From positions 1-49,898 of IMG/VR virus record IMGVR_UViG_3300046689_000033: 49,898 bases of DNA, one strand, 5' to 3'. The notes below the pieces were generated by a model. The model did no database searches. It was not told the origin of the DNA and saw only the letters and a list, made by a program, of their open reading frames with translations. This document shows, piece after piece, positions 2,529 through 28,201 of this stretch. The DNA is from a virus. Every line of letters starts with the position of its first letter. Positions within the stretch are counted from its first letter, which is position 1. The translations under genes were made by a program, and so were the position numbers.

Positions 2529-2641
2529 CACGAGCGGATTTGATAGCCTTCGGGGTAATACTGGCCCCGCTTGGCTACTTGGTGGTCTTGTTCGCGCTGG
2601 TATCCTTGCTAGCCGTGGTTGAAAAATGGTGGTTCAAATAA
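2525..2641 (+). CDS. Tiny single-span membrane protein
   Basis: A 38-residue protein starting in the ATGA overlap. Residues about 6-32 form one strongly hydrophobic segment, followed by a basic, aromatic end (EKWWFK). Its stop codon TAA overlaps the AAGGAGG ribosome binding site of the HD gene. A small inner-membrane protein is likely. Function is unknown; superinfection exclusion and lysis regulation are typical roles for such proteins but nothing here decides between them. Confidence 0.55.
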   Translation: MTRADLIAFGVILAPLGYLVVLFALVSLLAVVEKWWFK

Positions 2642-2647
2642 AGGAGG
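2641..2647 (+). promoter_or_regulatory. Strong ribosome binding site of the HD gene
   Basis: AAGGAGG lies 5 bases before the ATG at 2653. It sets the start there rather than at an in-frame upstream codon at 2626, which would place this site inside the coding region. Confidence 0.8.
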
Positions 2648-2652
2648 GCGGT

Positions 2653-3228
2653 ATGCCCCTAGACATTGAAGTGCAGCAAGACGCAGAGATCGGTGCCTAC
2701 AAGGACTGCTGGATGCAGACCTATACCGGCAAGAAATTCCACCTTCTCGCTCCGAGTCAGGACGAGATCGACATTGAGGACATTGCTGGCCCTCTGTCGA
2801 AGATGTGCCGCTACGGTGGCCATACCAAGTTCTTCTACTCCGTGGCCGAGCACAGCGTGCTCATAGCGCGCAAGGCCCCCACACCGTACAAGCTGGCCGC
2901 TCTGCTTCACGACGCCAGCGAGGCATACATCGCCGACATTATCCGTCCGCTCAAGCCCCACATGCCGGGGTACTACGAGAAAGAGGACATTGTGATGGAG
3001 GCTATTGCCAAGAAGTTCGGCTTCCAGTATCCAATGCCTCTGGAAATCAAGGCGCTCGACATTGCGATCCTGTCCGACGAGCGCGATGCCGTCATGGCCA
3101 AGACCGACGACGCACCGGGGCTGTGGGGCAACACGTCGCCAGCACTGGGCGTCAAGATCACCGGGTGGGCACCCAAGACCGCCTACCTCCACTTCATGAA
3201 CTCGTTCCTGAAGTACACCCGTGGTTAA
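2653..3228 (+). CDS. HD-domain phosphohydrolase (YfbR/DatZ-like)
   Basis: A 191-residue metal-dependent phosphohydrolase of the HD superfamily. Likely metal ligands are H67 in the AEHS segment and H86-D87 in LLHDASEAY; a conserved RPLK follows at about residue 98. Length and motifs fit the compact phage and bacterial group that includes the 5'-deoxynucleotidase YfbR and the dATP triphosphohydrolase DatZ of phage S-2L. Its substrate is probably a deoxynucleotide. Whether it removes dATP, as DatZ does, cannot be told from motifs, since similar proteins occur in phages with ordinary DNA. A MazZ-type enzyme is encoded 2.6 kb downstream. Confidence 0.85.
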   Translation: MPLDIEVQQDAEIGAYKDCWMQTYTGKKFHLLAPSQDEIDIEDIAGPLSKMCRYGGHTKFFYSVAEHSVLIARKAPTPYKLAALLHDASEAYIADIIRPLKPHMPGYYEKEDIVMEAIAKKFGFQYPMPLEIKALDIAILSDERDAVMAKTDDAPGLWGNTSPALGVKITGWAPKTAYLHFMNSFLKYTRG

Positions 3229-5678: not shown

Positions 5679-5845
5679 GACACAACCGAGTTGCTGCGCT
5701 ACTCTACGTAACCTTCATCGCGATGTTGTTCGTCATAGGGGTATTCCTGCTCGCCATAGGGCTGGTAGGTAAGACCTGCGCGAACACCATCTGCACCACC
5801 TTCTGCTCCAACGGGGTGTGCATAACCACATGCGTGGACCAATGA
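5675..5845 (+). CDS. Small membrane protein with Cys-rich tail
   Basis: A 56-residue protein with one membrane span at about residues 8-31 followed by a short tail with five Cys spaced C-x4-C-x3-C-x4-C-x3-C. The basic N-terminus (MRHNR) predicts the N-in orientation, which puts the tail in the periplasm where disulfides could form. It starts in an ATGA overlap and ends in another. No family is recognised. A role at the envelope, such as lysis control or blocking superinfection, is plausible but inferred only from topology. Confidence 0.6.
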   Translation: MRHNRVAALLYVTFIAMLFVIGVFLLAIGLVGKTCANTICTTFCSNGVCITTCVDQ

Positions 5846-6345
5846 GCATCGTCGATGGTTTCCCGTGGAAAGAGCCACCAACCACTAAACCGACCGTCAA
5901 CCCGAAGGATCAATGTGGTGTCCAAAAAGCGCCGATCTCCTACGTCTCGGGGCCAGTCCTATTCGAGCTTGGCCTTGGTATGGCCGAAGGGGGCTACAAG
6001 TATGGTGCCCACAATTACCGGGCGATGGGTGTCCAAGCGTCAATTTATTTTGACGCTACAATGCGACACCTTTGGGCGTGGTGGGAAGGCCAAGACTATG
6101 ACCCTGACAGTACGGCCAAGCTCCACCACGTCACGAAAGCTATCGCAAGCTTGGTTGTCATTCGCGATAGCATGCTCATGGGGAACCACACCGACGATAG
6201 GCCCATACGCCACCCGAGTGGAGAAAGAGCTGGCTGGCTGGATAGCGCGAACAAACTCATCAAAGTCTTGAACGAACAGTACCCGAAGCCACTCCAGCGT
6301 TACACCCAAGTAAGGAAGGAACACGACGATGCCGCTTCACAATAG
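5842..6345 (+). CDS. dATP/dGTP diphosphohydrolase-like (DUF5664, MazZ-type)
   Basis: A 167-residue protein matching the all-alpha family annotated dATP/dGTP diphosphohydrolase (DUF5664), related in function to MazZ of cyanophage S-2L. Diagnostic segments are G-Y-K-Y-G-A-H-N-Y-R at residues 51-60, the DATMRHLWAWWEG helix at 71-83 and the LHHVTKA helix at 94-100. Such enzymes turn dGTP or dATP into the monophosphate and pyrophosphate. In Z-DNA phages this supplies dGMP to PurZ. The family also occurs in phages without Z-DNA. It overlaps the Acb2-like gene by 17 bases and its neighbour upstream by ATGA. Confidence 0.8.
   Translation: MSIVDGFPWKEPPTTKPTVNPKDQCGVQKAPISYVSGPVLFELGLGMAEGGYKYGAHNYRAMGVQASIYFDATMRHLWAWWEGQDYDPDSTAKLHHVTKAIASLVVIRDSMLMGNHTDDRPIRHPSGERAGWLDSANKLIKVLNEQYPKPLQRYTQVRKEHDDAASQ
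6036..6057 (+). repeat. Inverted repeat inside the diphosphohydrolase gene
   Basis: AGCGTCAA (6036-6043) and TTGACGCT (6050-6057) form a perfect 8-base stem with a 6-base loop inside coding sequence. It may be chance, an RNA hairpin, or a protein-binding site. No terminator U-run follows. Confidence 0.4.
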
Positions 6346-6550
6346 CACGTTCAGCTACTTGAAGCCGACCGAAATCCAACTGTCGTTGATGAACGACTTG
6401 CGGGCTCTGACCCACGACTACGCTATGGAGCTAGATAAGTTGCTCCCTGACGGCGCGGACAAGACCTACATTCTCCGTCGCGTTCGCGAGACGGCCATGT
6501 GGATCAACGTGTGCATAACGCGGGAAGCCGATGGAACGCCTCGAAGTTAG
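6329..6550 (+). CDS. Acb2/Tad1-like cyclic-nucleotide sponge (putative anti-defence)
   Basis: A 73-residue protein with the layout of the Acb2/Tad1 hairpin family: an N-terminal TFSYLKPTEIQ segment, a first helix (about residues 17-38), an L-P-D-G turn with a following Asp-Lys, and a second helix with RRVRETAMWINVCITR, ending in DGTPR. Known members (Acb2 of Pseudomonas phages, Vs.4 of T4) assemble into oligomers that sequester cyclic dinucleotides, cyclic trinucleotides or cADPR-type signals and so silence CBASS or Thoeris. The ATG follows an AAGGAAGGA site with 8-base spacing. The assignment rests on remembered family patterns, so the ligand is open. Confidence 0.65.
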   Translation: MPLHNSTFSYLKPTEIQLSLMNDLRALTHDYAMELDKLLPDGADKTYILRRVRETAMWINVCITREADGTPRS

Positions 6551-6815
6551 GGCTGCGCACGGCAACACGGTTAGTGGTGTGTGCAGCAAGTGCAACCGCG
6601 CCTTTTTCGTCGACGACAACAGCAACGTTGGCCTGACGCGAGCGATGGCCGCCCCAACAGGAAGGTTTTATTACGCCTATGGCTACACCCGAAGGAAAGA
6701 TCAAATCGTACTTGAACAAGCGCCTCGCCGAGGTATTCGGCGCTCGTTGCTATCGCTTTATGCCCGTGCAGATGGGCTATGGCGCAAGTACGTTGGACTA
6801 CCTGCTCTGCGTTAG
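6531..6815 (+). CDS. Small CxxC protein overlapping the VRR-NUC gene
   Basis: A frame of 94 residues beginning 20 bases before the stop of the Acb2-like gene. It carries a C-S-K-C knuckle at about residues 18-21 followed by N-R-A-F-F-V. It fills the 128 bases between its neighbours that would otherwise be empty, but its last 137 bases run through the VRR-NUC gene in another frame, so the C-terminal third may not be conserved. Function is unknown. Confidence 0.45.
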   Translation: MERLEVRAAHGNTVSGVCSKCNRAFFVDDNSNVGLTRAMAAPTGRFYYAYGYTRRKDQIVLEQAPRRGIRRSLLSLYARADGLWRKYVGLPALR

Positions 6816-7026
6816 CGGCTACTTCGTGGGGATCGAGACGAAGGCCCCCGGCAAGAAACTTACTTCGCGGCAGGAAGTCGTGATGATGCAAATCCAGAAG
6901 GCTGGCGGCAAGGTGTATGTCGTGAGCAGTAAAGAGCAGGCCGACGAAGTGGTTGATAAACTATCGTGGTTGCCGGGTGTGTACGCAGCGCCGAGGAGCG
7001 GGTTCCCCGAAGCAAATGGCGACTAA
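6679..7026 (+). CDS. VRR-NUC family nuclease
   Basis: A 115-residue PD-(D/E)XK nuclease of the VRR-NUC type. The active site is read as D40 (STLDYL), E53-T-K55 (GIETKAPG) and Q66 (SRQEVV), in the order and size usual for stand-alone phage VRR-NUC proteins, which cleave branched or structured DNA. It sits directly upstream of a helicase gene, a common phage arrangement for replication-fork or recombination processing. A GGAAGG lies 13 bases before the start, so initiation may be weak or coupled. Confidence 0.85.
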   Translation: MATPEGKIKSYLNKRLAEVFGARCYRFMPVQMGYGASTLDYLLCVSGYFVGIETKAPGKKLTSRQEVVMMQIQKAGGKVYVVSSKEQADEVVDKLSWLPGVYAAPRSGFPEANGD

Positions 7027-7402
7027 CTTGATGCACCCGGACTTCCAGCAAAGCGGCAAATCATTCGGAGAAGTGACGTGCCAGTGCTGCAAAAGAGTGT
7101 TCCTAATTTGGCACGCCGGTCAAGCGCCAGCCATAGAGCCAACAACAAAAGCAGTAGTACATGAGCAAAACCCACATATCGAAACCAAACCAGACGATCG
7201 TGGTTCCCTCCACGGAGCTTACAGAAAACCTGTTTTCCAGCGCCCCTTCACTGGTGACTGGGGGTCGAAAGATGTTGCTGGTTCCGCACGACCTGCGCAA
7301 CACGGTGGTGCTCCGACGCCACGGGTACGAAGTCGAGAACCCAATGCTATCTTACTACCCGTGGAGTGGCTCACCCTTCCAGAGCCAGAAAGAGACGTGT
7401 GA
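7016..7402 (+). CDS. Small CxxC protein extending into the helicase gene
   Basis: A frame of 128 residues starting at ATG 7016, 11 bases inside the end of the nuclease gene. It has a C-Q-C-C-K-R-V-F knuckle at about residues 23-30, similar in shape to the C-S-K-C-N-R-A-F of the gene at 6531. If the helicase starts at 7272 the overlap is 131 bases, and this frame explains 7027-7271. Its C-terminal half is Pro/Arg-rich and may be poorly ordered. Function is unknown. Confidence 0.45.
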   Translation: MATNLMHPDFQQSGKSFGEVTCQCCKRVFLIWHAGQAPAIEPTTKAVVHEQNPHIETKPDDRGSLHGAYRKPVFQRPFTGDWGSKDVAGSARPAQHGGAPTPRVRSREPNAILLPVEWLTLPEPERDV

Positions 7403-15079: not shown

Positions 15080-18000
15080 TCACTGGCTCCGAAGATTGTA
15101 ATCACCGGATAACTCCTTGAGCGCTTTCTTGCTGACCGGGCTGGTCGCCCTATTGTCTGACACAGCTCCGTTAACAACTCGTTTCTGCTGGTCGCGCTGG
15201 CGCTTCAAGGCGGACGTTAAATCCTTCATTTTCAAGCCGCCGTCCATAGCAGCCTGCCGAGCGGCTTCCTTTTGGGCGGCCGTGTCGGCGGTTATCCATG
15301 CGGTAGTCAGAGCCGAGCGGCGGTTCTGCTCCTTCTGGCGTAGCTGGGATGCTTGGTGCGCATAGGCGCTTTGCTCGCTCTCACGCGCCACCGGGATACC
15401 GGCCGCCCGCAGCCCCATCTCGTAGGGGGTGTACGGCGTGAACGTCTGCCGCCCACGGTCGGTCTTCTTGCCTTCGGTGCCCTCGCGCCACGCGCGGATC
15501 ATGTCGGACACCGCCTTGAACGGTATAAGCTCCTGAGCGGCTTTCAGGGGATCGCCGTGAACCGCGTCTCGGACACCCTTCAGGGTGTTGATGCCCATCT
15601 CGCCTGCGGACCCGAACATCTGGCTGAACAGCCACGACTTGAAGTTGTCGTCCATGTCGCGCTCTTGCCCCGCCTTGGGAGCACTGAACAGCAGCATGTT
15701 GTCTACGCCCAATCCGGATGAGAAGTCAGCGTTCAGGAGGCGCGGCAGGCCGCGATTGAACACCTCGGAGAACTTGGACGCGCCCTCTTTGCTCATGCCC
15801 AAGTTGAGCCCAGCCGCCTTGGCGCGATCTCGGAAGTAGCTCTCGACGTCGTCCCAGTCCTTGTCGGTGACGCCGATCTGGCGCGCCCCAATGAGGGCGG
15901 CGCGGAACGGCTCCCATGCCAGCCCGAGTGCTCCAGCCATCGCCATGTGCGTGACGGTGAGGCCCGCGAGCGCCTTCAGGCTGATCACGCGCTCCTCCGG
16001 GCTTTGGCCCGAGATAACGTTCCCGACATGGCGGACGATAGTTTCCCACGTCCTCATGCCGAACATCTTGAACTGGAGCGGCGGGCGCGCTAGCGGGTGG
16101 CGCATGAACGCGGGCTTGTCCTCGTCGGTGTAGCGGTACTGTGTCTGGTCGGCCGTGGTCATGGAGCGCGCCCAAGCCGCTTCCTTGTCGCCGGACTTCG
16201 CCATCTCCAGCCGGTGCGAGGCGAGGATCGTTACCGCGCGGTTGATCGCTTCCGCCGCCGTCGGCAGAGCGCGCCCGATCTCCTCGGTGCGTAGGAAGAT
16301 GCGGTCGCCTACGCCCAGCGCCCCTTCAGCGAAGTCCCTAAGTCGGCCCTCTCGTATATCCAGCTGCGGGTTCCCGGCGCGGCGCTCTGTGCGGCCGATT
16401 TGCAGACCAGCGTCGGCATCCAGCGTTTTGGCCGCGATGTGCTTCTCGAACAGCTCGCGCTCCTCCGGTCCCATTCTGGACATGATGCTGTCCATAAGCC
16501 GGAGTTGAATTGTCTTGTCGCCCTTGAAGGCGCGGCCGGTGCCCTTAATACCTTCAAGTAAGAGCTTGCCAGCCCCAATGTCGTTGTACGCCTGAAGCAT
16601 GAACTTCGTGGTCTTGGCGAAGCCGTATCGCGCCGCCAGTTCCGGGTACGTGTACATGAACGGCTGCGTCAGGTTCCTAATGGTGAACGCTGGGGTCGCC
16701 AAGTGCATCATGTAGGACGCCGACAGAATGCGTTGGATCGCCGGTTGCAGGTTGTACGCGCTGCTGCCGCTGTCCTTCAGGGCGGCCTCTCGCTTCAGCA
16801 TCTCGTTGTAGACCTTGCTGAGGGCGTAGCCACCTTCGCCCTTCTTGTCTACTTGCTTCTTTATGTTCTCCAGCGCCGCGTCGACGACCGGCTGTGTCTT
16901 CAGCGTGCCGAGGCGCTTGCCGTACTCGGAGGCGTATTCGTCAAAGTTGCGAAGCATGTCGTGCGGGGCGGTGTCGTAACCGGCGACGTTCTTGCGCGCC
17001 ACTCGCGTGGAGTGCGCGCGGGTAGCCGCCAGCACCTGCATGAAGTGCTGCTGGAGCGTCTCGCGAGCCGACTCCTGCTGCGCCTTGCTCATGCGCTTGA
17101 ACTTATCGTTCGCCTCCATGCGCTGTTCCATGCGCTTGTACTCGTTGCCCATCAGCGTCGGGTTGACCGGGGCGTGATACTCTTTCTCCTGCACGGCTAT
17201 GCTGTCCGGCTCGTACTTGCCGCTTGCCTTCATGTCGCGCTCAAGGTTCTCGGCGTCGGACAGACGGTGGTGCATGCTCATATGCTGGTCGTTGACGCCA
17301 ACGATCCACTGCTTGGCGAGGTCTGGGTGGAGGTCCGTAGCCTTCAAGTCCTCGGACGTGAACTTCGTCCCAGTCTCCGGGTCGTGGTCCAAGCCGGTCT
17401 TCGTGTTGAATATCTCGGTGCGCACGGACGGGTTCAGGTGCTGCTTCTCGGCGAACTCCTTGGCGTCGGCCTCGCTAGTGAACGAGAAGTCCTTGTCCTT
17501 GGGGTCGCCGTGAACCGTCTCCTTACCTGTAAGTACGGCCTTGATCTTGCCCAGCACGACATGCTTGCCGCTGCGGCCGAGGGGCGAGTACGGCCCCTGT
17601 AACCGTGAAATGTCCCCAGCGTCCTTGATGGTGTCGTACCAATCGCCGAGGTTCTGCTGGTCTAGCAGGGTGTCAGTGTTGCTCCACAGGCGCTCGGCCA
17701 TCGCGCGAGCTTCTTCTGGTCGGACCACGCCGAACTTGGTCATCTGATTGACCATCGTCTCGACGCCAAGCTCGTGCGAGCTTTCGTCGGCGAGGTTGCG
17801 CCACGATGCAATCACCGTCTTGGCGTCGTCGGGCAGCGCATCGTACACGGGGCGAAGCTCGGCGTCGCGCGCCTTCCTCTGCCACCACTTAGAGCCGCTC
17901 ATGGAGTAGCCTTGGCCCTTCTTGGTGAGCGGCTTGGACGGATCAATGCCGTTCACGGTGCTCTCGTTGAGCACTCGCGTGGCGTTGTTCATTACCTCTG

Positions 18001-21000
18001 GCTGGTCCTTGTACTTGCTCACGAGGTCCAGCCACTCCTTCTGGATGCCGTCGAACTTCTCGCGGCCGGACTGCGTCATGTGCGCGCGGAGGGCGTGAGC
18101 CTCTACCAGCTTGCTGACGGTGCGGTCGGGGTCGATGCCCATGCGGTGCGAGGCTTCGCCAATCGCGGACGACACGCGGGCGAACATCATCTTTGGTGCG
18201 CTTAGACGCTTGTTGAGCGCCTCGCGCGGCGACTCCTTGGACGCTTCCTCCTCTTTGACTACGAGGTCTGCCTTGGTATCGGCGCGGTTGCGCTCGACCG
18301 CCTCGTCAGACGGCAGGCTGGCTTTTACACGTAGCATTTCGCGGTCATGCTCGGTTCTATCGAGCGGCCTATCCTGCCAGTAGCGCTCGGACAGCTTGCC
18401 CTCTAGGCTGGTTTCTTTACCGGCGCTGTCATCGAACGCCTTCATGGCGGCTTCAAGCGCGCTGGTAGACTTCTCGGGGGACTTCAACATATCGCGAACA
18501 CGCGCCACGATGGCCTTCCACGCGGTAGGCTTATTACGCCACTCGGCTACACCAAGCTCCTTGGCAAGCTCCGGGCTGATCTCGTGGTTCATCATGAGTT
18601 CTTGGAAGTCTTTATTGGTCAAGCTCTCGGTTATGAACTCGTGCTCGTTGGACAGGCCGTACTCCTTTGCGTACTCGGGGCGCTTGCCAAGGACGTCGTC
18701 CATTATTTTGCGGATTTGCGCCCTTGCCACCGGATTGTCTTCAATGTGCGCCAAGGTGGCGGCGTGAATGGCCTCATGGAGAACGGCTCGTGCCTGCAAT
18801 CCATGTGACAGCCCATCTACCAGAACAATCTGCTTCTGCGTTGCGTCGTAGAACCCAATGTTCTTCTCGCCAGCCTTAAGGTTTAGGTCATACCGCAGAC
18901 GGTCTAGCTCTTTAGCGGAGACGAACCTGACCGGAATGTTGGGGACCAAACTGTTAACGATCTTGGCGATGTGCGGCATATACATGGCTAGGCGGCCGCC
19001 TATAGACGTGAAGTCGTGCTCTGCGAACACGTCCTTAACGGTGGTGCTACGCAGCGCGCTACCCACGCGATTTTCTTCAGTCTTGTCGTCAAACCACACG
19101 AACTTGTGCGGCTTGGTGGGATCGGTCGGCTCCGTGATGTCCTCGGTAGCCTCTTTCTTCACGCGAGCATCTAGGTTCGGCTTGGGCTCGCCAGCGATGC
19201 CGCTTTCGCCCGCGCTAACCACCTTGCGGGCGTTGTTGCCCTGATCCTTCACCTCGTCGTACACGGCCTGCACGCGCGACTCGTCGCCGCTGCGCAGCCC
19301 CTTGTCGTGCATCATGAACTCGGCGAAGGACATTTTCTTATTCACGAACCTATGCGCCAGCTGCACCCACTTGAACTCGGGTGTCGGATGCGCAGTCGGA
19401 TAGTAGAGCTTGCCCTCTGGGTTCTGCTTGCTCGGCGGGCTGCGGTCGTGGTTGTTCTTCACCTCGTCCTGATTGAGCACGTCGCGGATTTGGCCACGGA
19501 CGCCGTCTATCCACCTGTTGAGCTTCGCGCCAGTACCCGTACCTTTGGGTACTTCGGGGATAGCGGCGCGCGGGTCCTCGAACGCAGTCTTCACTGCGCG
19601 CAAATTCTTGTTGTGCTTGGCCTCCTGCTCGCCACCGGAGAATTGGCGCGGCGGGGCGCGCTCGGCCGGTGCGGCTTCCTCAACCTGCTTGATGGCTGGC
19701 TCGGCCTTTGTCTCGGCATCTCGCTTCTGACCACGACGTCGTGCCTCTGGCTCGGCCTTCGGCTCCGGCGCTGACCGTCGCGTGTACGCATCGCGAACGA
19801 TCTTAGCGGCTGTTAACCTGTCGGCGTCACTGACTTTCGGCGACAGTAGCTTGTTAAGCTCATCTATATACAGCTGATGTGTGGACTCTTGCAGCTTATC
19901 GCCACGGTTGGTGGCGTCCTGCTTGCCCTCTCGCAGGTTCCTAATGGCGTCTCGTATCTCGCCATGAGACGCGTTTTCTGATAAGTCGGGGGAGACATAC
20001 GGCTTTGCCTTTGTCTCCACCGACGCCTTGGGTTGTTCCTGCTGCGCCTGCTGTATCGGCTTCTCGGCTACCGGCTCTTGGGCGGGAGCGTCCTTCGCCT
20101 TCGACACCTTCTTGGCTCTAGCGGCCTTCGGCATAACCTGTACGGGTTCCACTGTCGCAGTGGGGCCATACGTGCGCGTGTCGGCTGTTTGTTTTACCGC
20201 AGGCTTCGCCAGTATCTCGTGCGCCTGCCCCGGCGTCATATTGAAGATTTCTTCTGGCGTATGCCCGCGCGCCCTCAACTGCGACTTCATCTTGTTGGTA
20301 ATCTGCGACGGCATGCCGGTCACGGGTTCGGCTACCGCAGGCTTCACCTCTTGAGTCGGTTCGGAGATAGGCCCTTCCGTAACCGTAACCGGCTCTGGCT
20401 TACGCGCTAACTGCTCATTGTTTCGCTCCGCGTACCCTTCAGCGCGAGCGGTGTTATCTCCGGGCAGAATCTCACCAACCACCTTGCGTATGTCAGTCAG
20501 TGACTTGCCCTGCCTTCCCATCTCTCGAATGGTAGCGAGGCGTGCCGGGTCGGGCGCTGCTGGCGCTGCTGCTGCTGCTGGCTCGGCCGCGCCAACCTCT
20601 GGTGTTCCCAGCTTGGGAACTTTGGAGCGGCGGCGGGACGTAGCCTTGGCTGCTTCGGCAGCGGGCGGCGCTGGTGCCTGCGGGTTTGGAGGAAGCTCCG
20701 GCTGCGTAGGCATGCTGCGTATATTGGACGGAACCTCCTCTGCGCCTACCGGAGGAGTAGGTGCAGCCCCTTCTTCCTGAACGATGCCCCTTTGGGCCGG
20801 TTGCTCTGGCGGCGCTGTTTCTGCTGGCTTTTCCACTGGCGCGGCAGTTTCCGGCGCAGGAGTGGAAACCTCAGGCTTTGCAGGCTGTTCGGCGTCTATC
20901 GCCGCTTTGATGGTCGGATCGAGGCCCGCTTGCATTGGCGCGCCTGCTTCTTCGTCGAGCGGCGTTTTTGCGTCTGGGCTTTCCCAGTCGTCTGCGAAGC

Positions 21001-22297
21001 GGTCTTGGCCGGGCTTCTTTGCAAATCGGCCATCATTACCGCTATCAGCTTCTCCAAGCCCGTTACCCACGTTTTCTTTGGCGCGGGCGCTCGTGTCCGG
21101 CTTCGCTCTCTCTGCGGCCGTGCCGACGGAGTTGGACATTTGGTCGATGTGCGGCGTCGCGGTGTCTTGCGCGGCTTTAGCATCGGCGTCACCTTTTGCT
21201 GGAGTGCCCGTGCCTTTGGAGTCAACGCCGTCGCCCGGCTTTGTGTCGCCCGGCAGTTTGTGCTGGCCCCTACCACCAAGTATCGCGCCGATAACCGCTT
21301 GGCCCGCCGCCGAAGTGAAGTCCGGGTGAAATTCCGCATCGGGGTCCACCATCTGTTTGTGGATTTCGTGTTGAACGTAGTCGTCAGCAACAGCCAAGCC
21401 GCCGAACGCCGACGCTTCCAGCGCCTTCGGGAGCACTACTTCCTTAAGCCAGCCAGCGGCCAGCGGCGCGGCCTTCGCGAACGGCGCGAGTATCTTGCCT
21501 ACGGAGCCCATCGCCAAGCCTTCGGCACCACCAACTAGACCACCAACTATGTTGGCTCCAGTGGACGTGTCCTCACCGGCGGCTCGTGCCTTGTCGGCCT
21601 GTGCGTTTATTCCCCCTGCCGCGCCGAGTACCCCGAAGGTTCCAAGTACGGCTGCACCTGCGCCAGCAGCTGCGACTTCCGGAGTTGCCGCGAGTGCGCC
21701 AGCGACAAGCGGGGCTCCGAGGACGGCGGCCACGATTGGCGCAAGACCAGAGCCTGCTGCGCCGAGTACCGTGTTCTGTTCCTCTGGAGTAAATCCGACG
21801 TTCTTGTCCGTCCACTCATTGATACCTTCTCCAGCTTTCGTCAGCGCGTTGTCGCCACCAAACAACTCGCCGAGCGCCTTCAGGGTGCTGCCGACTGCCT
21901 TGGGTACACCAGCTTCGAGGCCGTGTATAGCCGCCATCGGGCCGCCAATGTGGAAGCCGTCGTCTTGCTTGGCCTGCTTGACGTCAGGAGTAGTGTCCTC
22001 CACGAAGCCTTCAGGAAGTGCGTATTTGTGGTCGCGGTTCTCCGAGCCAAGCTCGGGCATCCCGAACTTGTTGTTGTAGCGCGCTCCGACTCGGTCGAGC
22101 ACGCTCTTACCTTTGGGTCCGATCTTGGGGGTGTCTTCTACGAAGCCTTCGGGCAAGGCGTAGATGTCCCTTTGCCCTACACTGGCGGCGTCCGTGCCGT
22201 GCGCCCTACCAATACGCTCCCTCGGGTTTACTTCCGGGGCCTGTACTGATTCGTCTTGGGTGCCGACTACGTCTTCGTTGTCGTCTTCCAACGCCAC
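15080..22297 (-). CDS. Giant polyvalent/internal virion protein with zincin motif
   Basis: A 2405-residue protein, the largest gene here. Residues 1-90 hold two copies of YALPEGFVEDT. Residues about 160-240 are Ala/Gly-rich and hydrophobic and could insert into a membrane. Residues about 350-950 are Pro/Ala/Lys-rich linkers. A zinc metallopeptidase motif H1174-E-A-I-H1178 is followed by E1220-F-I-T-E1224, a gluzincin-like pattern seen in phage polyvalent proteins. A PLARPPLQFKMFG segment near residue 2070 resembles the PLxRF domain of such proteins. It is probably packaged in the head and ejected with the DNA. GTG start with an AAGGAG site, directly after the previous stop. Confidence 0.75.
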   Translation of the reverse strand: MALEDDNEDVVGTQDESVQAPEVNPRERIGRAHGTDAASVGQRDIYALPEGFVEDTPKIGPKGKSVLDRVGARYNNKFGMPELGSENRDHKYALPEGFVEDTTPDVKQAKQDDGFHIGGPMAAIHGLEAGVPKAVGSTLKALGELFGGDNALTKAGEGINEWTDKNVGFTPEEQNTVLGAAGSGLAPIVAAVLGAPLVAGALAATPEVAAAGAGAAVLGTFGVLGAAGGINAQADKARAAGEDTSTGANIVGGLVGGAEGLAMGSVGKILAPFAKAAPLAAGWLKEVVLPKALEASAFGGLAVADDYVQHEIHKQMVDPDAEFHPDFTSAAGQAVIGAILGGRGQHKLPGDTKPGDGVDSKGTGTPAKGDADAKAAQDTATPHIDQMSNSVGTAAERAKPDTSARAKENVGNGLGEADSGNDGRFAKKPGQDRFADDWESPDAKTPLDEEAGAPMQAGLDPTIKAAIDAEQPAKPEVSTPAPETAAPVEKPAETAPPEQPAQRGIVQEEGAAPTPPVGAEEVPSNIRSMPTQPELPPNPQAPAPPAAEAAKATSRRRSKVPKLGTPEVGAAEPAAAAAPAAPDPARLATIREMGRQGKSLTDIRKVVGEILPGDNTARAEGYAERNNEQLARKPEPVTVTEGPISEPTQEVKPAVAEPVTGMPSQITNKMKSQLRARGHTPEEIFNMTPGQAHEILAKPAVKQTADTRTYGPTATVEPVQVMPKAARAKKVSKAKDAPAQEPVAEKPIQQAQQEQPKASVETKAKPYVSPDLSENASHGEIRDAIRNLREGKQDATNRGDKLQESTHQLYIDELNKLLSPKVSDADRLTAAKIVRDAYTRRSAPEPKAEPEARRRGQKRDAETKAEPAIKQVEEAAPAERAPPRQFSGGEQEAKHNKNLRAVKTAFEDPRAAIPEVPKGTGTGAKLNRWIDGVRGQIRDVLNQDEVKNNHDRSPPSKQNPEGKLYYPTAHPTPEFKWVQLAHRFVNKKMSFAEFMMHDKGLRSGDESRVQAVYDEVKDQGNNARKVVSAGESGIAGEPKPNLDARVKKEATEDITEPTDPTKPHKFVWFDDKTEENRVGSALRSTTVKDVFAEHDFTSIGGRLAMYMPHIAKIVNSLVPNIPVRFVSAKELDRLRYDLNLKAGEKNIGFYDATQKQIVLVDGLSHGLQARAVLHEAIHAATLAHIEDNPVARAQIRKIMDDVLGKRPEYAKEYGLSNEHEFITESLTNKDFQELMMNHEISPELAKELGVAEWRNKPTAWKAIVARVRDMLKSPEKSTSALEAAMKAFDDSAGKETSLEGKLSERYWQDRPLDRTEHDREMLRVKASLPSDEAVERNRADTKADLVVKEEEASKESPREALNKRLSAPKMMFARVSSAIGEASHRMGIDPDRTVSKLVEAHALRAHMTQSGREKFDGIQKEWLDLVSKYKDQPEVMNNATRVLNESTVNGIDPSKPLTKKGQGYSMSGSKWWQRKARDAELRPVYDALPDDAKTVIASWRNLADESSHELGVETMVNQMTKFGVVRPEEARAMAERLWSNTDTLLDQQNLGDWYDTIKDAGDISRLQGPYSPLGRSGKHVVLGKIKAVLTGKETVHGDPKDKDFSFTSEADAKEFAEKQHLNPSVRTEIFNTKTGLDHDPETGTKFTSEDLKATDLHPDLAKQWIVGVNDQHMSMHHRLSDAENLERDMKASGKYEPDSIAVQEKEYHAPVNPTLMGNEYKRMEQRMEANDKFKRMSKAQQESARETLQQHFMQVLAATRAHSTRVARKNVAGYDTAPHDMLRNFDEYASEYGKRLGTLKTQPVVDAALENIKKQVDKKGEGGYALSKVYNEMLKREAALKDSGSSAYNLQPAIQRILSASYMMHLATPAFTIRNLTQPFMYTYPELAARYGFAKTTKFMLQAYNDIGAGKLLLEGIKGTGRAFKGDKTIQLRLMDSIMSRMGPEERELFEKHIAAKTLDADAGLQIGRTERRAGNPQLDIREGRLRDFAEGALGVGDRIFLRTEEIGRALPTAAEAINRAVTILASHRLEMAKSGDKEAAWARSMTTADQTQYRYTDEDKPAFMRHPLARPPLQFKMFGMRTWETIVRHVGNVISGQSPEERVISLKALAGLTVTHMAMAGALGLAWEPFRAALIGARQIGVTDKDWDDVESYFRDRAKAAGLNLGMSKEGASKFSEVFNRGLPRLLNADFSSGLGVDNMLLFSAPKAGQERDMDDNFKSWLFSQMFGSAGEMGINTLKGVRDAVHGDPLKAAQELIPFKAVSDMIRAWREGTEGKKTDRGRQTFTPYTPYEMGLRAAGIPVARESEQSAYAHQASQLRQKEQNRRSALTTAWITADTAAQKEAARQAAMDGGLKMKDLTSALKRQRDQQKRVVNGAVSDNRATSPVSKKALKELSGDYNLRSQ

Positions 22298-26200: not shown

Positions 26201-28201
26201 TTAGAACGAGTTGCTGCTAGTGCCGCCATATAGGTCAATGGCGGTTGATAGCTGTATGTGCGGCGTGCTGTACATGCCGCCGCTATAGACTAGGTTGTAC
26301 GCTGGGGGAACCGGATAACCCGGCTGCCAAAGCGACACAAGCTTCGCATTTTCGGCTGGCGTTAGCGCATGGCCGTCAATCTTATTCCAGTTCAGCGTGG
26401 AGCCGTCCGTCAGGTTCATGAAGTCGGCCGCCGACACGCCACCTACTGAGCCAGCGCCGCTGCTGCTACCTATCTGCGGGATTTGGCCACCCGTAGTGCT
26501 AGTGCCGCCGATCGGAGTCGTCCCGCCAGTCGTGCCACCCGTAGTTCCGCCAGTCGTGCCGCCCGTAGTGCCGCCCGTAGTGCCGCCTGTAGTTCCACCA
26601 GTTGTGCCGCCCGTAGTGCCGCCCGTAGTGCCGCCCGTGAAGCCTCCCTGATTGATGCCGGTGACGCCGCCTGCGCCGTTCCACGGCTGGTACGCAGGGA
26701 TGTTCTGCGGCTGGAAGTAGCTACCGCCTGTTTGGTCGCGACCGGCCATCGACATGGCATTGGACATCCAATCCGCTTGAGAGGCGTTAGTGGCTAGGCC
26801 GGGCTGCTGCGAGCCTGCACCGGGGTTTGCGTTCCACGGGGCGGGCGCGGGCGCTGAAGTGCTGTCGGGCGGTATGCCGCTTGTTGGCGCGGGTGCAGGA
26901 GCCGGGGCGGGCGCGGGAGCCGTCGGGTCAGTAGCGGGGGCACCGCCGTCCGCGAACGACTGCACGGCACCTCCGTAGAAGTGCATCGGGATGCCGCCTT
27001 TTATCGTCGGGTGAGAGTTGTTGGGGTCCTGCCGCCCCTTGCGCGCCATCTGAATGTCTTTTTGGAACTTGGCGTGGCCGTACCACTCGACCACGTCGCG
27101 CGGAATGACGAACTCGCCAGCGTTCAGGCGGGCCGGAATGTCGTCTACCTTGGCTCCGTTGCTGGGGCTATCGCCGGGGGGCACGTAGCCGCCCTTCGCG
27201 AAATAGTTGGTTGAGGACGGAGACGTCGACCCACCCATGCCGTTGGTTGAAGACGTGCCTGCTATGCCGCCGCCGCCCCAGCCGCCCATCCCGTTGCCGC
27301 TAGTGCTGCCGCTAGTGCTGCCAGACGTCACCCCTCCACTATACCCAGAGTACGGGTTTACGGTGGACGGAACTTCCGGGGTTGGGCCGGGGGAAGGGAG
27401 CGCCCTTTCGGAGTCGAACGTGCCAGCTTGGTTGGTTTCGGAGACGTTGCCGCTCTCGCTTAGGGTGCCAAGCGGCTGGAACTTCACGTCATTTACGCCC
27501 GTGTTGAGGTAGTCCTTGGTCGTTCCGAGGGTGAGCGCGCCAGCGGAGGTGTTTCCGAGGGCCGCGTTCTCCGCGCCGGTCGTGCCCTGATAGGCGACGT
27601 TCTGCTCGGAGGCGGCCTGACCCGGCAGAGTGCCGAGGTCCTGTTCCGCCTGCTGCATGAGCGCGCGGCCGGTAGCCTGCGTGTTCTGTCGAGCCGTGAC
27701 ACCAGCCGCTGCCTCGCCCGCGCCAGCCTGCGTGGCCATATTGGCCTCGATGCCAGCGAAACGGCCCGCGCTCGGGTCGATGCCGTAGCTCTGGAGGTTC
27801 TGTTCGAGGTTCTTGCGCTGCGCGTCCATCGACTGCGCAGTACCCGCCTCTGCTTGCCCCATCTCTTGGGCAACCCGGTTCGGGCTGGAATACGAGTTCG
27901 CGGTATTGATGATGTTCCCGAGGACTCGGGGGTTGTAGGCGTTGTACGTCTGCGCGTCCCGGCCAGCCTGATTGGCCATAAGGCCGCTGCCGCCCTCGTA
28001 CTGGCCAACGTTATAGCCAGTCAGCTGGCTATCCGCGCCGAACTGGTTCTGCGCCCATGCGTACTGGTTCGCGCCAAGTTGGTTGGCTTCGTTGCCAAAT
28101 TCCTGCAAAAACGCCAGTTGAGGCTCGTAATCAGGTACGAAACTCGTGCTGCTAGACTGGCCGAGGCTGACGGATGAATTGTCACCAATAGGTGTCGGCA
28201 T
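26201..28201 (-). CDS. Gly-rich virion protein with FAxGG and GEFVIP motifs
   Basis: A 666-residue Gly/Ser/Ala/Gln-rich protein. The N-terminal 230 residues are Gln/Ala-rich and helical. The middle has Y-F-A-K-G-G-Y-V followed by DDIPARLNAGEFVIPRDVVEWYG, an arrangement like the FAxGG...GExxxP ends of siphophage tape-measure proteins and other phage proteins. S-F-A-D-G-G follows. A run of about ten T-G-G-T units is encoded by the 12-base repeat at 26521-26640. It is probably an internal or tail virion protein acting with the next two large proteins. Confidence 0.65.
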   Translation of the reverse strand: MPTPIGDNSSVSLGQSSSTSFVPDYEPQLAFLQEFGNEANQLGANQYAWAQNQFGADSQLTGYNVGQYEGGSGLMANQAGRDAQTYNAYNPRVLGNIINTANSYSSPNRVAQEMGQAEAGTAQSMDAQRKNLEQNLQSYGIDPSAGRFAGIEANMATQAGAGEAAAGVTARQNTQATGRALMQQAEQDLGTLPGQAASEQNVAYQGTTGAENAALGNTSAGALTLGTTKDYLNTGVNDVKFQPLGTLSESGNVSETNQAGTFDSERALPSPGPTPEVPSTVNPYSGYSGGVTSGSTSGSTSGNGMGGWGGGGIAGTSSTNGMGGSTSPSSTNYFAKGGYVPPGDSPSNGAKVDDIPARLNAGEFVIPRDVVEWYGHAKFQKDIQMARKGRQDPNNSHPTIKGGIPMHFYGGAVQSFADGGAPATDPTAPAPAPAPAPAPTSGIPPDSTSAPAPAPWNANPGAGSQQPGLATNASQADWMSNAMSMAGRDQTGGSYFQPQNIPAYQPWNGAGGVTGINQGGFTGGTTGGTTGGTTGGTTGGTTGGTTGGTTGGTTGGTTGGTTPIGGTSTTGGQIPQIGSSSGAGSVGGVSAADFMNLTDGSTLNWNKIDGHALTPAENAKLVSLWQPGYPVPPAYNLVYSGGMYSTPHIQLSTAIDLYGGTSSNSF
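26521..26640 (-). repeat. 12-base tandem repeat coding for TGGT units
   Basis: About ten degenerate copies of a 12-base unit (plus-strand form near CCGCCCGTAGTG) encode successive Thr-Gly-Gly-Thr blocks. It is a candidate for copy-number variation by slippage, giving a linker of variable length. Confidence 0.85.

Follow-up and report, generated by a model that had tools for sequence, protein, structure and literature searches.

A short Acb2-like hairpin protein encoded in a phage DNA-metabolism block is a candidate cyclic-oligonucleotide sponge

Criteria for Acb2 include a hexamer with three cyclic-dinucleotide pockets, nanomolar affinity for cyclic di- or trinucleotides and in vivo protection against CBASS. 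As a hexamer, Acb2 acts as a sponge for cyclic di- and trinucleotides (PMC10097602, PMC12043709). In the T4 protein Vs.4, Y8 and F82 stack on bases, polar contacts come from H11, K23 and R79, T12 is a helix cap and S74 lies close to the ligand (PMC10097602). Tad1 also contains the hairpin domain; its ligands include gcADPR as well as cyclic oligonucleotides, and its gcADPR pocket is built partly by an N-terminal beta-sheet domain (PMC12043709). Acb2 triggers the Panoptes defence (PMC12657218).

The gene described here is located on a virus contig (IMG/VR record IMGVR_UViG_3300046689_000033). The window, the whole stretch of DNA that was analysed, comprises 49,898 nucleotides. The genome is of the podovirus type, and the gene sits in a DNA-metabolism block on its forward strand. 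The features of the locus are:

5842..6345, + strand: upstream DUF5664/PF18909 gene of the dATP/dGTP diphosphohydrolase type (dNTP-pyrophosphohydrolase type; Pfam E 3.4e-19)
6312..6319, + strand: Shine-Dalgarno-like AAGGAAGG, 9 nt before the ATG, within the end of the upstream gene (direct sequence reading)
6329..6550, + strand: acb2-like gene, 73 amino acids, assigned as a short-form Acb2/Tad1 hairpin protein (ORF, PF24729, decoy-controlled profile, structure model)
6356..6358, + strand: Y10 codon; Y10 aligns with the Tyr that stacks on a base, T4 Vs.4 Y8 and PaMx33 Acb2 Y11 (alignments; PMC10097602)
6401..6403, + strand: R25 codon, aligned with the basic contact K23 of T4 Vs.4 (alignments; PMC10097602)
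6497..6523, + strand: codons 57-65, M-W-I-N-V-C-I-T-R, closing part of helix 2; the conserved core includes N60 and R65
6524..6547, + strand: tail EADGTPRS, with the clade-specific conserved x-ADG-x-PR, ordered in the deeper model
6531..6815, + strand: small CxxC-motif ORF that starts inside acb2 and ends inside VRR-NUC; may be a gene
6679..7026, + strand: downstream VRR-NUC-type endonuclease (PHROG endonuclease E 2e-18; syntenic in Rhizobium phage RHph_TM27A)

The ORF is intact from ATG to TAG, and the upstream gene runs 17 nt into it. On the 3' side follow the small overlapping ORF, the VRR-NUC-type nuclease and an SNF2-type helicase. A sequence-only reading had called a 73-residue gene with exactly these boundaries between two DNA-metabolism genes. 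Both points held, the first with the addition of a ribosome-binding site of its own, the second by the PF18909 and VRR-NUC matches of the flanking genes. The motif quoted in that reading, TFSYLKPT...RETAMWINVCITR, is present as well.

The small ORF at 6531-6815 had no family match in Pfam or PHROG. It resembles by eye the ORF at 7017-7160 after the VRR-NUC gene; both carry CxxC-like motifs and are possibly small zinc-binding proteins. PHROG 2252 names the DUF5664 family of 5842-6345 'endolysin; inhibits RNA polymerase'. This name conflicts with the Pfam match and is repeated in several mycobacteriophage records. An HD-type deoxynucleoside monophosphate phosphatase (PHROG 318) is encoded at 2626-3228, in the same genome as the PF18909-type gene. 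The two are reminiscent of parts of base-Z pathways; next to the dNTP pyrophosphohydrolase there was no recognisable PurZ gene. Elsewhere in the window, 15080-22297 (-) encodes a 2405-residue protein matching only PHROGs of unknown function, and 26201-28201 (-) a protein with a low-complexity run of about ten GGTT repeats. The window has no tRNA or known RNA family. The portal protein shares 56% identity with the RHph_TM27A portal and is a distant relative of those in HMO-2011-type phages; no relative of it turned up in the GTDB genomes. An alphaproteobacterial host would be a guess from these sequences, and no more.

The family assignment rests on profile comparisons. The 73-residue protein matched PF24729, the Acb2/Tad1 hairpin family, with 26.6 bits (E 7e-6; curated cutoff 27), the sole Pfam family with a low E-value; NCBIfam had no model for it. 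All 15 relatives scanned matched PF24729 with an E of 0.01 or better (best 3.2e-9), and the PF24729 records of four relatives exceed the cutoff with up to 35.1 bits. Phage proteins intermediate between the clade and Acb2 match PF24729 strongly, as do the proven sponges T4 Vs.4 and PaMx33 Acb2. Because helical hairpins give chance matches, the assignment was tested with decoys. A profile of seven intermediates, with the clade of the 73-residue protein left out, scored this protein at 44.9 bits and none of the 81 clade members below 35.6 bits. Reversed relatives reached at most 4.3 bits and shuffled ones at most 7.9. A halves-swapped set scored high too, since local matching preserves each helix, and is not usable as a negative control.

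The direct match to Acb2 is weak: an Acb2-only profile gave the protein 4.0 bits, so that the relationship rests on the intermediates. The hhalign comparison of the clade with the single T4 or PaMx33 proteins was also weak. For the widened family against the Acb2 branch, hhalign yielded 92% probability (E 5.6e-7) and paired Y10/Y8, R25/K23 and M57/M75. F8, Y10, R25, M57 and N60 are common to the protein and PF24729 members. The widened profile matches PDB 9PTQ, 'Acb2 homolog 43' (E 3.5e-5 to 5.1e-5). A designed helical bundle matches the clade profile about as strongly (E 4.5e-6), and the 9PTQ match is thus supporting only; 9PTQ was not retrieved by the profile of the 54-member clade alone. 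Neither the single-sequence search of the PDB nor the first clade profile returned Acb2 or Tad1; the designed helical bundle found by both was put down to composition. Taken together, the profiles and the model support homology to the Acb2/Tad1 hairpin family beyond helical composition, as the sequence-only reading had proposed. The position of Vs.4 R79 is taken by V61, and the protein is therefore assigned to a clade of its own within the hairpin family and not to Acb2 proper. It is a new clade within a known kind.

The predicted structure supports an Acb2-type monomer architecture. The AlphaFold2 model from 54 viral-contig sequences has a mean pLDDT of 93.7, helices at residues 5-8, 15-38 and 43-64 and an ordered tail; with 15 sequences the pLDDT was 87.7 and the tail less certain. 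The two-helix build first seen by eye thus appears as one short and two long antiparallel helices, modelled as a stand-alone monomer without another domain in the ORF. In a library of viral structure models, the top seven matches were all named Acb2/Tad1 hairpin proteins. A Foldseek search of the PDB (about 350,000 chains) placed T4 Vs.4 with cGAMP at rank 2, with the highest probability listed and an E of 2.4; the monomer model had no significant PDB match. An N-terminal beta-sheet domain is absent: the ORF starts nine residues before Y10, the model has no N-terminal strands, and the sequence upstream is another gene in another frame.

The residues of the binding pocket are partly conserved. 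When hhalign was run between the widened family and the Acb2 branch, Vs.4 Y8, F82, H11, K23, R79, T12 and S74 aligned with Y10, T64, P13, R25, V61, T14 and A56. These ligand-affecting positions all fall on invariant or nearly invariant columns (7/7; p about 0.001, with small numbers and dependent on the alignment), and none of five Vs.4 hexamer-interface positions falls on a conserved column. Y10 and R25 are invariant or nearly so in the clade, with R25 invariant across 81 relatives, and the spacing from the Tyr to the basic residue is identical to Vs.4. V61 and T64 occupy the places of Vs.4 R79 and F82; an Arg at the R79 position is invariant in the Acb2 branch sampled, compared with V61 in the clade. 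Further features of the clade are a TRxADGxPR tail and two invariant residues, N60 and R65. Conservation counts for the C-terminal motif from the alignment scan are inflated because that scan selected on the motif; a second set of counts comes from the single-sequence scan, which used six patterns along the protein.

The protein is probably a short-form Acb2-like sponge for cyclic oligonucleotides, with CBASS as the most likely target. During infection, the product would most likely oligomerise as hexameric Acb2 does. Pockets between protomers would hold cyclic oligonucleotides from a host CBASS cyclase; the invariant Y10 would stack on a base, and R25, likewise invariant, would contact the rest of the ligand. 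N60, R65 and the ADGxPR tail may assist in place of Vs.4 R79 and F82. The signal would be kept from the CBASS effector and the infected cell spared self-killing. A counter-defence role is supported indirectly by homology, the kept Tyr and basic pocket positions and the mobile accessory behaviour described below. CBASS and Thoeris had been proposed side by side from the sequence. The Acb2-like architecture of the model favours CBASS, and Thoeris appears less likely because the beta-sheet domain of the Tad1 gcADPR pocket is absent. Carrying the gene may also come at a cost, as Panoptes is triggered by Acb2 (PMC12657218).

The replacement of two Vs.4 pocket residues, R79 and F82, means that the ligand may differ. 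The clade may even be a sponge type of its own, with the Tyr and basic residue kept, the pocket rebuilt by N60, R65 and the ordered ADGxPR tail, a signal foreign to Acb2 and Tad1, and a gene that travels alone between unrelated phages. We hold this reading tentatively and consider it rather unlikely.

A related proposal is a hairpin sponge for a signal outside CBASS, such as the cyclic ADP-ribose isomers of Thoeris or a cyclic oligoadenylate of type III CRISPR. The altered equivalents of R79 and F82 and the clade-specific conserved tail are in line with it, and Tad1 with the same hairpin domain binds gcADPR as well as cyclic oligonucleotides (PMC12043709). The missing beta-sheet domain of the Tad1 gcADPR pocket and the Acb2-like architecture argue against it and make it improbable.

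The distribution of the gene bears on whether it acts in counter-defence at all. The first scan found 22 close homologs with 51-68% identity, and the alignment scan at least 261 viral stretches encoding relatives, of which 80 were kept. A close search of the GTDB genomes found no close relative, and the best relative from a cultured phage is 35% identical. The gene is clearly under purifying selection, with dN/dS of 0.04-0.17 in close pairs with unsaturated dS. Together with the close homologs and the PF24729 match, this speaks against a chance ORF. The 80 loci and the gene's own locus fall into about 37 backbone groups, defined by common neighbouring ORFs within about 3 kb; with such short flanks the number is approximate. 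In locus L008 (4926-8781) the order is terminase, acb2 and portal, confirmed by Pfam. By eye, acb2 is flanked by an ATPase and an ssb-like gene in L007, L014 and L012, and lies upstream of a primase in another context.

In phages unrelated to one another, genes of the Acb2 family repeatedly adjoin those for terminase, portal or scaffold (L008, L041, L043, L048). Vibrio phage D460 and Gordonia phage FlyingTortilla have such a gene after the portal, and Thiohalocapsa phage MD04 has one before the scaffold.

Loci with the same backbone as the window were found in viral contigs by an alignment query of the common helicase (n=80); a single-sequence helicase query gave no match there. VRR-NUC and RecB-like neighbours are kept in 76-77 of these loci. 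An acb2 copy is present in 3/80 (two distinct), directly before VRR-NUC as here, counted over stretches of at most about 6 kb on each side. These copies are 31-33% identical to the 73-residue protein, and copies in unrelated backbones up to 68%. A search of the corresponding site in RHph_TM27A, the cultured phage nearest in backbone, found no copy. A distribution of this kind marks a mobile accessory gene, and counter-defence cargo would be expected to show it.

The hairpin might instead be reused for another phage function in replication, packaging or regulation. The gene does lie inside core modules in several lineages (L008; L007, L014 and L012; nucleotide-metabolism genes here), and the Vs.4 hexamer-interface residues are not kept. 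We give this reading little credence: the contexts vary among some 37 backbone groups, the near absence of copies around this locus in the gene's own backbone fits cargo, the conserved positions are those of the pocket, and relatives of the Acb2 branch also adjoin portal or scaffold genes (D460, MD04). A mere likeness of low-information helical hairpins in an ORF unrelated to Acb2 could draw on the score of a 73-residue protein below the Pfam cutoff and on the designed bundle matching the clade profile, and is hardly credible given 44.9 bits compared with the low decoy scores and the five residues from F8 to N60 common with PF24729 members.

If the Acb2-like protein is a working sponge, the known anti-CBASS proteins would gain a large and mobile branch, carried by phages whose bacterial hosts are uncultured and mostly environmental. 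The altered pocket would be a natural test of the residues that set the ligand, and CBASS-type signalling defences would be suggested to press on phages beyond those of the well-studied enteric and pseudomonad hosts.

Among the known systems, Tad1 shares the hairpin domain with the 73-residue protein by Pfam definition and differs in its beta-sheet domain. The core F-x-Y...R25...N60 is common with PF24729 hairpin proteins of actinophages and of Paenibacillus and Lactococcus phages (ScoobyDoobyDoo gp210, Phabba, phage 1706, GIW2016). The closest, ScoobyDoobyDoo gp210, is 35% identical (hhalign 97.5%, E 5.5e-12). All four are without the ADGxPR tail of the clade. PF24729 proteins are named 'putative phosphomannomutase' in Brevibacillus and Paenibacillus phages (L039, Jenst, Vegas and others), which for a protein of 68 amino acids looks like a misannotation. 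Rhizobium phage RHph_N2_6 (L044:196-531) encodes a homolog of the Acb2 branch (PF24729 E 7.9e-18) that has both the N and the R, in MWLNRAV, and bridges the two branches.

'Acb2 homolog 43' (9PTQ; 76 residues, six chains deposited), for which no paper was found, has a gapless profile match over residues 7-61 and shares the LPxGxxK turn. Within the aligned stretch, the position of Y10 is not occupied by a Tyr.

The comparison with Acb2 itself (T4 Vs.4, PDB 7UQ2; PaMx33 ORF24, PDB 8H2J/8IXZ series) shows differences in length and pocket. The 73-residue protein is 15-20 residues shorter, with a hairpin shortened around a G-[AP]-D-K turn, and direct identity is 16-21%. R79 is replaced by V61, F82 by T64 and H11 by P13, and the conserved TRxADGxPR tail is added. 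Both are small stand-alone PF24729 proteins with a short N-terminal helix and two antiparallel helices, a Tyr and a basic residue 15 positions apart and a Met at the equivalent helix-2 position.
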